From: Candidatus Nitrospira nitrificans
Lineage (GTDB): Bacteria; Nitrospirota; Nitrospiria; Nitrospirales; Nitrospiraceae
Reading direction: 5' to 3'
Assembly: GCF_001458775.1 (NCBI RefSeq)
Contig: NZ_CZPZ01000011.1
Span: 1-64,000, forward strand
DNA length: 64,000 bases
Within the stretch, counting starts at the first letter, position 1; each line of letters starts with the position of its first letter. The position numbers were made by a program, and so were the translations under genes. Below, piece by piece: positions 15,278-64,000 of this stretch. The notes under the pieces were generated by a model. It made no database searches. It was not told the DNA's origin and saw only the letters and a program-made list of their open reading frames with translations.

Positions 15278-15391
15278 CAGGCTGTTCAAAAAGGCCGTCC
15301 GGCAAGGCCGCAGTGAGCGAAGGAGCGAGGGATACGTCGTTAGGTATGAGCGATGCGAGCAGGCCCCCGGGGGACTTTTTCAACAGCTTGC
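15278..15391. repeat. REP-like palindromic element between murD and ftsW
   Basis: The ends are imperfect inverted repeats: CAGGCTGTTCAAAAAG at the left (15278-15293) and CTTTTTCAACAGCTTG at the right (15375-15390). The interior (GCAAGGCCGCAGTGAGCGAA, then GAGCGATGCGA) recurs in inverse orientation at 28937-29085, where the same terminal sequence reads GCTGAAAAAGTC. It is therefore a two-copy element within this window and probably a dispersed genomic repeat. It occupies most of the 151-bp gap between murD and ftsW in an otherwise tightly packed operon. Confidence 0.7.
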
Positions 15392-28933: not shown

Positions 28934-28936
28934 TAG

Positions 28937-29085
28937 GATGCTGAAAAAGTCTGCCAGCGGCGTTCCCCGCCTTGCCGAAGCGGCTTCGCGAGGCAGGTCG
29001 CATCGCTCAGAGGGTCAACGTACCGAAGGGTATGCCTCGCCACTTCGCTCACTGCGGCCTTGCTGGACAGCCTTTTTGACCATTC
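28937..29085. repeat. REP-like palindromic element, second copy (inverse orientation)
   Basis: Read on the minus strand, it begins GTCAAAAAGGCTGTCCAGCA, then GGCCGCAGTGAGCGAA and GAGCGATGCGA, and ends GACTTTTTCAGCATCC, matching the element at 15278-15391 along its length. The middle differs and is about 35 bp longer. It lies directly after the serine hydrolase stop and may also act as a transcription-stopping hairpin. Confidence 0.7.
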
Positions 29086-29158
29086 TGAGTTATTCTAGTA
29101 TTAGCACCGAACAAACTTCCGGCCATATCGCGGCATTATCTAAGCTTTTCCGCAGCTA

Positions 29159-44340: not shown

Positions 44341-44414
44341 CGTTCGTGGTGAGCGTGTCGAACCGTGAGCGAACTTCCTTAACGGTGCATGTCTTCGACA
44401 AGCTCAGGACGGAC
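44341..44414. repeat. REP-like palindrome (TTCGACAAGCTCAG type)
   Basis: GTGAGCGTGTCGAA (44349-44362) and TTCGACAAGCTCAG (44394-44407) are inverted repeats matching at 12 of 14 positions. They are separated by 31 bp and flanked by further partial matches (GTTCGTGG, GGACGGAC). It resembles the CTTCGACAAGCTCAG palindromes scattered in many bacterial genomes. It is different in sequence from the element at 15278. Confidence 0.6.
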
Positions 44415-44437
44415 GGCGCATGAAGAGTGGAAATGTA

Positions 44438-56065: not shown

Positions 56066-56081
56066 GAACGTGGTTCGTGAA

Positions 56082-56119
56082 TCGTGAAGCGCAGGATACG
56101 TACGAGATACGCTTCACGA
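56082..56119. repeat. Palindrome between trpE and trpG
   Basis: TCGTGAAGCG (56082-56091) and CGCTTCACGA (56110-56119) form a perfect 10-bp stem around an 18-base loop that itself contains TACGTA. It fills most of the 70-bp gap between trpE and trpG. It resembles short dispersed palindromes; an attenuating or RNA-stabilising role is possible but unproved. Confidence 0.55.
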
Positions 56120-56135
56120 GCGACGAGTGACACCC

Positions 56136-61474: not shown

Positions 61475-61596
61475 ATGCGGCGAGTCAGCTGGATGTTCAC
61501 CTTCGCCACCGTCTACAACCTGGTGGGCATCGCAATCTAGTCAAAGCCGCGGCCTTCAAGAAAAGAGGACTGGTTGCTCAACATGGAGCTTATTAG
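61475..61596 (+). pseudogene. Decayed transposase C-terminus (IS5-like DDE family), frameshifted
   Basis: From 61475 the frame reads MRRVSWMFTFATVYNLV and then breaks. In the next frame it continues RNLVKAAAFKKRGLVAQHGAY to a stop at 61594-61596. Together they match the usual end of IS5-type transposases (RVxWMFTxAxxxYNLVRxRxL). One lost base and at least one substitution near 61530 explain the break. The rest of 61266-61474 shows no further recognisable transposase. Confidence 0.6.
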
Positions 61597-61682
61597 GTGC
61601 ATGCGCACAGCGTTTTCCGCAGCCTGCTAGGAGGCTGCATGTGATCTCTGGTCCTCGCCGTCACCCTGAAGGTTTTTGCCGG

Positions 61683-62798
61683 TCAGTTGGCGTCCCCGAT
61701 AACTGCTCGTGGCTGCTTCCGAACAGGCTTCATTACCAAATATCTGGCTATAGGCACCTTCCCTACACCAAGCGTGACGAGTACTGAAACGGCATAGACC
61801 ACAAGGGCACCAAGAACTTCTCTCAAGGGCCAATTCCCCAGTTTCGACCATAGGATCGGTCTAAGCGTATACATCACCAGAATGTGGGACACATAGACTC
61901 CCAAGGTGAATCGGGCCAGGAAAGGGAGGGGAGTCGATTGACCCAATGTAGGCTTCGCGAGCGCCAGGAGGAAGATACCTATGCTCAGGGCAATGCCCCC
62001 CAAGAAGGCGTGTTTCTGAATGACCAGGTATGAACTCTGAAACAGAGACCGCATGACTGTCCCTTCGATTATGGTAAAAACATACCCTCCTACAATCAGA
62101 CTGCACGCCATGGCCATCGAGGGCTGTTCTCGTTCTGCAAGCCACCACCCAAGGGCTGTGAGGAGAATGGCCAGCATCCATTTCCCAAGATAAATGGCCG
62201 AGTTGAAGGGATCTCCACCAATGAATTCCTCAGCGAGTATCAAGACGTAGAGGATGACAATCAAATGAATCAGGTACTTCTGCAGTTGAAAAACCGCAAC
62301 CAATGTCAAAGCGGCAAGGCTGGCTATGAGAGCGGGTAGGAACCAAAGATGCCAGACCGGGCGCCCTCCCTCTAGGAAAAGATGGATATGTTTGTCGGCG
62401 AGGATATGTATGTTCTTCTGAACTGCCGAGTAAAACGGTTGCCACCAGCCATGGCTAAGGACCTCGGTAGGCCAATTTGACGGAACCACGATGTAGATGC
62501 ACAGCCATCCGAAGAGTAACCATCCGAGAGGGGAAGTATATCGAAGAAAGTGAGCAATGAAATCTTCGTGTGGCAATGCTGATTGCCGGAAAAAATATCC
62601 GGCTGTGATCAAGAAATACGGCAACCCCATCCACCAGAGTAAATGCCCGGTGAGGACGACGGGTCCGGCGAGGACTACAGGGAGGTGCCCCTCTGCGAAC
62701 CGTGAGAGATTAGGGACAAAGGTGGAGGTGTGCCAGAGGATCACCGCAAAGATGGCGAGCACCCGAAAACTTTCTATGCTGGCTATGCGTATCTTCAC
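61683..62798 (-). CDS. Acyltransferase 3 family membrane protein (OafA/YrhL-like)
   Basis: 371 residues with about ten membrane segments. RIASIESFRVLAIFAVILWHTS contains the conserved R/H near the N-terminus (E-x-x-R-x-x-A and W-H). GLPYFLITAGYFFRQ resembles the second motif, and WHLWFLPALIASL the third. Such proteins O-acylate sugars of LPS, capsule or small molecules. It stands alone between two transposase relics, so it may have been transferred. Confidence 0.8.
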   Translation of the reverse strand: MKIRIASIESFRVLAIFAVILWHTSTFVPNLSRFAEGHLPVVLAGPVVLTGHLLWWMGLPYFLITAGYFFRQSALPHEDFIAHFLRYTSPLGWLLFGWLCIYIVVPSNWPTEVLSHGWWQPFYSAVQKNIHILADKHIHLFLEGGRPVWHLWFLPALIASLAALTLVAVFQLQKYLIHLIVILYVLILAEEFIGGDPFNSAIYLGKWMLAILLTALGWWLAEREQPSMAMACSLIVGGYVFTIIEGTVMRSLFQSSYLVIQKHAFLGGIALSIGIFLLALAKPTLGQSTPLPFLARFTLGVYVSHILVMYTLRPILWSKLGNWPLREVLGALVVYAVSVLVTLGVGKVPIARYLVMKPVRKQPRAVIGDAN

Positions 62799-63084
62799 CA
62801 GATCATATCCTTCGCCATCCCTGAACGAAACAGTTCAAGAAGAGCGTTTGGCATTGTCTCCTCATCAGCTTGCGGTTCCGATTCAGGCTTTCCCTCGTAG
62901 GGTTCAGCGGCAGTGCATCAATCTATCACAAGAGTGTTCCGGAGCCCTGATCTAACTTATGAAGAAATTCGTCAAACTAGCTGTAGAAAGCATATAAGAA
63001 TGAAGTGAAATGTGCCTATCGGATAAAACCCGAATGCGTGATCAGATTGTCCTCTGAAAAGATCCATCAAATGATCGGCAGGGA
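62799..63084. other. Non-coding interval upstream of the acyltransferase gene
   Basis: No credible gene or RNA seen. It should contain the promoter of the minus-strand acyltransferase gene, but no convincing -35/-10 pair was identified. Confidence 0.4.
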
Positions 63085-63385
63085 TTAGCCAAAGCTCGCC
63101 CATGGGACGAGCTTCAAGGCCGGGTACTAGTCGACCGCGAGCGGTTCGTCGAAGGTCCGGCGCCTAGGCTTCAAGATATGCGTCTCTTTAACGAGATTCC
63201 CCTGACGGCAGCGTTTTGCTTCACGACCGATGCTCATTCAACTCTTCGGATCGAGGATTTGCATCGATCGGTCACGGCGCAATGACCACTCGCCGGCCAG
63301 CCATAGCCTCTTGGAGATCGGCCGTGCCGTGGGCTTGCACTATGCGACGATCAGTCGCATTGCGTTTCTCCGAGACAGTGGTTGA
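63085..63385 (+). pseudogene. Relic of a REP-associated (RAYT, Y1/IS200-like) transposase C-terminus
   Basis: Three fragments in different frames fit one RAYT C-terminus. First WDELQGRVLVDRERFVEG from about 63103 (cf. WxxLRGQxxLGSExFV), then LRIEDLHRS (cf. RPSLEDLF), then HSLLEIGRAVGLHYATISRI ending at the stop 63383-63385. The last is the typical YSxxEIxxxxGLHYATVSR helix-turn-helix-like end. The frame changes and internal stops mark it as dead. The catalytic HUH and Tyr parts are missing. Confidence 0.6.
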
Positions 63386-63522
63386 TCCAGGCCTGATCCT
63401 CTATCTTTCTCTTCTTGTGTGTTCTCAGAAATTTATCTGAAAGGATCTAGGCGCTAGGGGTTGGGCAAACAACGGTCCATAGGGCTATTCGCTGATCCTG
63501 CCCCATTGGACGAGGAGACACC

Positions 63523-64000
63523 TCACCGATGCGCTCGATGGTTGGCTCGCAGGTCTTTCCGATCGTGATGCATCTTGCGTCGATCCTTCCGGGCTTTGTG
63601 GCGGTCTTCCCGACGATGCTGCCGATCGGCTTGAAGGTCCTGTCGGTCGTATGGGAGTTCCTGACGGGCGTGGTGCAGGTCTCGCCGATCTTGATGAAGC
63701 TGTCCCACATTGGCTCGGTCCCGTACATCCTGCCGAGGCTGTTGCCGATCACGGCGAACCACTGCTTCGTCTTGCCGGAGATCCCGCCGGTCGCCCTGGA
63801 TATCTTGGTTGTCACGGCGTTCATCGTGCGGCTTACGATGACCTTCACGAAGCTCCTGCGTGTTCTGTTGCACCTCGCGCCACGGGCGTCGCGGTTCCGT
63901 GAATCCCTGACTGAATTCGGTCTCGGGGAAGACAGCCTGGGCGGAGGTCGGTCCGCTACTAAGCATCGCCATTGCCATACTCACCTGTATGACAATTCTA
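63523..64000 (-). CDS. Secreted Arg/Asp-rich repeat protein, 5' partial
   Basis: The frame is open to the window edge, with an in-window GTG at 63984. The visible start (IVIQVSMAMAMLSSGPTSAQA) is the end of a signal peptide whose true Met probably lies beyond 64000. The mature part, about 130 residues, is extremely rich in R, D, Q and H. It has repeated units of the type D-R-x-D-L-x-x (DRRDLRQ, DRRDLHH, DRQDLQA, DRKDLRA), predicted as a long charged helix. I know no function. An overlapping frame on the same strand (63447-63848) is judged a shadow. Confidence 0.65.
   Translation of the reverse strand, partial: RIVIQVSMAMAMLSSGPTSAQAVFPETEFSQGFTEPRRPWREVQQNTQELREGHRKPHDERRDNQDIQGDRRDLRQDEAVVRRDRQQPRQDVRDRANVGQLHQDRRDLHHARQELPYDRQDLQADRQHRREDRHKARKDRRKMHHDRKDLRANHRAHR

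Follow-up and report, generated by a model that had tools for sequence, protein, structure and literature searches.

The window analysed here, a stretch of 64,000 nucleotides (contig 11, bases 1-64000) from the genome of Candidatus Nitrospira nitrificans (4.12 Mb, 36 contigs, 99.8% complete), contains at 63079-63382 the remains of a RAYT-like Y1 (HUH) transposase; judged from its sequence, this is a dead TIRYT-type gene of which the C-terminal third is left. In the explanation that we hold to be very probably correct, this TIRYT-type relic is truncated and inert, and the palindromic repeats of the window, named A, B and C here, are of other origin. The relic is an ordinary and well-supported representative of a known kind. 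The link to the palindromes that the initial annotation had drawn was wrong, and the palindromes appear to come from a different source. Two things that can easily be confused in Nitrospira genomes are separated in this way: decaying Y1 genes of the TIRYT type, in which every type is preceded by a short motif of its own, and numerous palindromic repeats, seemingly independent of these genes. The features are listed in Table 1.

Table 1. Features located in the window and the evidence for each.
Feature	Position	Strand	Evidence and remarks
Family A repeat	15278..15390	+	113 bp; ends CAGGCTGTTCAAAAAG / CTTTTTCAACAGCTTG
Family A repeat	28934..29087	-	154 bp; oriented C-type end first
Palindrome B	44341..44420	.	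GTGAGCGTGTCGAACC ... TTCGACAAGCTCAGG; limits by eye
Palindrome C	56078..56131	.	GTGAAGCGTATCTCG type; limits by eye
Acyltransferase-3 gene, between trpA and relic	61683..62798	-	PF01757, E 7e-13
RAYT/TIRYT relic, first piece	63079..63219	+	residues 180-226 of 285-aa parent; tblastn with L034 protein; hmmsearch E 1.6e-8
RAYT/TIRYT relic, second piece, next frame	63188..63382	+	residues 216-285, C-terminal helix-turn-helix; tblastn, 60% identity; hmmsearch E 2.9e-11; HTH_38 E 0.02 (below cut-off)

A transposase relic downstream of trpA

A profile built from 21 intact relatives was searched, with E up to 1, against the 1,490 stop-to-stop pieces that the window yields at a minimum length of 25 codons. 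Two pieces matched: 63058-63282 in frame 0, at model positions 180-226, and 63206-63382 in frame +1, at model positions 222-280. The reversed window, used as the control, gave no match. When the closest relative, the 285-aa protein of locus L034, was used as the tblastn query, the two segments of Table 1 were found in adjacent frames, together covering residues 180-285 of a RAYT-type Y1 transposase with one frame break between them. The fragments of a RAYT C-terminus noticed earlier at 63085-63385 were borne out by both searches, and the translated comparison of the 63000-63400 region with RAYT relatives that had been proposed as a check matched on both pieces. The decay of the RAYT had also been recognised correctly: its C-terminal third is all that remains and is frame-broken. 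Several frame breaks had been claimed, of which one was detectable, near 63206-63219; all sequence N-terminal to residue 180 was also lost.

The Y1 core, with the HUH motif and the catalytic tyrosine, was absent from the relic. No convincing N-terminal match was obtained with tblastn in 61500-64000, and the Y1 domain of the parent lies in residues 13-120, which indicated that the catalytic part is gone. Because the remnant begins at residue 180 and is frame-broken, it should be without transposase activity and is presumably inert. Further DNA copies of the relic were not found in its own genome at E 0.01. A search of 98 genomes with the relic peptide gave a match in 23, the own genome included, and the best intact matches were 49-55% identical.

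The trpA gene upstream was identified by PF00290 (E 1.8e-90). DNA around the relic had a match in 10 of 59 genomes including its own, and the best match outside it was in a second Nitrospira, G007. There the order of trpA, relic and the same downstream gene was retained, with 76-82% DNA identity to the window. The acyltransferase-3 gene had no match in the corresponding G007 stretch, and the RAYT match in G007 contained one TGA and one TAG. Since the relic occupies the same place after trpA in both genomes, its decay is probably old, and the decayed gene most likely predates the divergence of the two species at this locus.

Intact relatives of the relic and their upstream motif

The intact parent-type protein of L034 passed both Y1_Tnp (E 6.5e-13, 49.3 bits, cut-off 23) and the NCBIfam model REP_Tyr_transpos, where it scored 83.7 bits (cut-off 80). 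The parent type has a C-terminal helix-turn-helix extension, which was matched in two intact relatives by HTH_38 with E 0.00059 and 0.00017; neither match reached the curated cut-off, and those to HTH_23 and HTH_28 were weaker still.

Relic-type genes were collected at 109 loci and reduced to 42 distinct genes by requiring a MAR(P/A/Q)L start and deduplicating on the first 150 residues. With up to two mismatches, GGGGTCAGAYCTTG was present within 120 bp upstream of 31 of the 42, each of which has a copy 45-56 bp before the start, and it was present in inverted form within 120 bp downstream of only 13. The upstream copy was seen in 21 of 22 relic-type genes from Nitrospira; the 11 genes without it comprised ten from outside Nitrospira and one from Nitrospira.

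GGGGTCAGAYCTTG has the form of the GGGGWSAS motif of TIRYT (TnpAREP subclass 2.1) genes and agrees with its published description (PMC3733652, PMC6006769). Domain layout and motif together make the parent look like an enzyme of this kind. Subclass 2.1 genes are reported to have no REPs nearby (PMC3733652, PMC6006769), and the likeness to the parent type extends over the Y1_Tnp core with the C-terminal helix-turn-helix, the GGGGWSAS motif, placed upstream of the gene at a nearly constant distance, and the lack of REP-like repeats beside it. The window copy differs from TIRYT genes: it is dead, consists of a C-terminal fragment and has no motif match in its vicinity. The Nitrospira genes differ in that they usually lack the inverted downstream copy. 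The gammaproteobacterial RAYT (PMC2817692) is a related HUH Y1 transposase, and the L034 protein passes REP_Tyr_transpos, but no inverted GT(A/G)G REPs were seen around the gene and its upstream motif is of another kind.

A single GGGGTCAGAYCTTG site, with one mismatch, was found in the own genome. The window contained no match at 0-1 mismatches and 11 at up to three mismatches, compared with 11.6 expected by chance. With counts at chance level, the idea that a remnant of its motif survives close to the relic was rejected.

One relic-type RAYT frame, at L047 in G032, continues without a stop from upstream RHS repeats (PF05593, E 2.8e-15) and is open over 510 codons.

The intact Y1 gene of the genome

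One Y1_Tnp gene was found in the own genome, at G000:C10:87976-88647, coding for 223 aa. It passed Y1_Tnp (43.7 against 23) and did not pass NCBIfam REP_Tyr_transpos (63.8 bits, cut-off 80). A different motif, GGGTCGGGASTCTT, lies 54 bp upstream of this gene, and no inverted GGGTCGGGASTCTT was present within 300 bp downstream. Genes of this type were collected at 57 loci, giving 17 distinct genes, 16 of which have GGGTCGGGASTCTT 53-54 bp upstream (L141, L144-L163). An inverted copy within 120 bp downstream was found for four of the 17, the gene of the own genome not being among the four.

Genome-wide, GGGTCGGGASTCTT occurred at 13 sites, compared with 2 in the control. Five of these sites are located on C10 at 84.7-98.9 kb, around the 223-aa gene. 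In the window, up to three mismatches gave 7 matches where 12 were expected, and GGGTCGGGASTCTT was rejected as a window repeat on these counts. It is possibly a small low-copy repeat family tied to the 223-aa gene and none of the palindromes noted earlier. The suggestion that the repeat flanking an intact RAYT would be one of the four palindromes failed when it was checked, as this gene carries GGGTCGGGASTCTT and none of the four.

Three families of palindromes

The loci at 15278, 28937, 44341 and 56082, which had been noted as palindromic repeats, are all palindromic. They do not form a single family: the first two belong to family A, the third is B and the fourth is C. The genome does have dispersed palindromes, as had been supposed. 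The ends of family A, CAGGMTGYTSAAAAAG, were found at 180 genome sites compared with 21 for the reversed control (up to two mismatches), and C was found at 35 sites (L078-L107) compared with 2 for its control. For B, one arm was searched and gave 2 genome sites, equal to the 2 of the control, and B was rejected as an amplified family on that count.

Family A is built around a 58-nt inverted pair (86%). It gave at least 49 BLAST matches genome-wide, some of which are pieces of one element (40 of 89 first-look candidates were scored). Twenty elements with both ends visible were picked (L164-L183). They measure 76-154 bp, 11 of them 122-126 bp. When the two 16-bp ends of each element were compared, with position 10 excluded, 295 of 300 positions agreed; shuffling gave a mean of 275.8 and a maximum of 288 (5,000 shuffles, relatedness ignored). 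Position 10 is a near-fixed mismatch, differing in 19 of the 20. Target-site duplications of at least 3 bp were found at none of the 20, and a 2-bp match was seen at one where 1.4 were expected.

Ends of family A (up to one mismatch) were detected in all but one of 98 genomes. Of these genomes, 39 are not from Nitrospira; the number of end sites was 0-16 in 36 of them and 22, 59 and 135 in G064, G070 and G096, respectively, with controls of 0-3. Family A is common in Nitrospira, and a number of other genera in the order have it too, as in G096. At Rfam gathering scores there was no match from eight sources, namely five A elements and one locus each of B, C and the own-type motif. No description of family A in Nitrospira was found in open-access titles and abstract openings. 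In PMC12306157, Nitrospira moscoviensis is a row in the genome table, and RAYT and TnpAREP are absent from the text.

The C copy of the window is located in a short gap between two genes that read, by eye, like trpE and trpG/pabA. Two further C copies, L078 and L105, appear by eye to lie inside family A elements.

Y1 genes and the palindromes

We examined the flanks of the intact genes for A, B and C. Within 300 bp, one of the 42 relic-type genes had such a repeat, a single B-like site at L043, and none of the 17 own-type genes had any. The chance expectation in these flanks is about 0.7 A elements, estimated from about 80 elements per 4.1 Mb. At these counts A, B and C do not behave as the REPs of a RAYT/REPtron, which would both flank the gene and be dispersed. 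Pointing the other way, family A was seen beyond 300 bp at four loci. In L144 and L150 a copy was located about 680-710 bp from the Y1 gene; L157 has an A-like end (two mismatches) at a distance of about 500 bp; and in L062, where the gene is on the minus strand, an A pair lies about 1.06 kb off.

The density of A was compared with gene counts across genomes, where Y1 counts take in IS200 genes and fragments and miss Y1 relics like that of the window. The rank correlation with Y1 count was 0.16 (p 0.21) in 59 genomes and 0.04 (p 0.82) in the 30 genomes that are at least 95% complete; with relic-type count it was 0.15 (p 0.26) and 0.10 (p 0.61) in the same sets. Given genome size, the partial rank correlation of A with Y1 was -0.03 in both sets. 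A RAYT as the mobiliser of A, B and C was rejected on the flank counts and the lack of a size-corrected correlation, and labelling these palindromes as REPs of a RAYT is wrong on present evidence.

Alternative explanations

The first rival explanation is a working RAYT/REP system, in which this RAYT or a close lost one spread A, B and C and the relic is what remains of it. The relic and dispersed palindromes do occur in one genome, and A elements lack a target duplication, which HUH enzymes would likewise not leave. Median A density is also lower in genomes with no Y1 hit (8.3 per Mb, 13 genomes) than in those with Y1 (13.7 per Mb, 46 genomes); among genomes at least 95% complete the medians are 5.7 (4 genomes) and 14.5 (26 genomes). 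However, there is no correlation after size correction, and A is present in genomes without a Y1 hit: 57 A ends were counted in G053 and 40 in G058, each of them 99% complete. Such genomes could have lost the Y1 enzyme after the repeat spread. The repeats are also absent within 300 bp of intact Y1 genes except for the one B-like site. A REP is a palindrome of 20-40 bp (PMC3733652) with a GT[AG]G tag, whereas the A elements have the greater lengths given above and none of the 20 starts with GT[AG]G. We therefore regard such a system as improbable here; A, B and C would owe nothing to Y1 enzymes and have a different origin.

Two other readings concern the relic alone. One denies that a RAYT is behind the similarity at 63085-63385 and puts it down to coincidence or to an isolated helix-turn-helix; in its favour, Pfam reported HTH_38 as the sole, sub-threshold match on the relic, and NCBIfam had no match in this region. 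But adjacent pieces match consecutive positions of the model, the reversed control was empty and a relic at the same locus exists in a second genome, so that tblastn, the profile search and the shared G007 locus rule this reading out, leaving it a negligible probability. In the other reading, selection maintains the surviving C-terminal helix-turn-helix as a DNA-binding peptide that has been domesticated, in keeping with a second piece that is open over 59 codons and has the best profile score. That piece, however, starts inside the old gene and lacks five residues relative to the profile, and its G007 counterpart has in-frame stops; we consider domestication very unlikely.

In the preferred explanation, that of a TIRYT-type relic unconnected with the palindromes, a Y1 gene of the TIRYT kind would have come to lie downstream of trpA in an ancestor shared by two or more Nitrospira species, and would have lost its catalytic domain and suffered the frame break. 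Its intact relatives presumably act on the TIR-like GGGGTCAGAYCTTG about 47 bp before the start codon, sometimes also inverted after the stop; this motif is the predicted substrate of the transposase in view of its position and the published TIRYT motif. A, B and C would have arisen from a different origin.

Family A and its possible mobiliser

What remains of interest is family A, a candidate hairpin repeat with matched ends. It has in common with MITE-like repeats that it is short, dispersed and bounded by terminal inverted repeats, and differs from them in the missing target duplication and in that no autonomous partner was identified among the end pairs listed. The partner search was made by eye and covered 100 of the 180 end places in the own genome and places in a few other genomes, and two G053 end pairs 1.0-1.5 kb apart were examined.

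We tentatively suggest, as a possibility on the unlikely side, that family A represents a hairpin element not described before, with a length of often 122-126 bp and an occurrence in several families of the order, whose 16-nt ends co-change and nearly always pair, and which is mobilised without target duplication by a non-Y1 enzyme, possibly on a folded single strand. In one of the two G053 pairs (L138:301-1349), the A-type ends are separated by about 1.05 kb, and fragments of an IS110-type transposase lie between them (PF02371, E 8e-18; PF01548 at E 4e-6, below cut-off). This transposase is a possible partner of family A, but an IS that has jumped into an A element, and does not drive it, may equally account for L138. 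The other, L139, consists of two A copies flanking a response-regulator gene (PF00072, E 1.1e-25).
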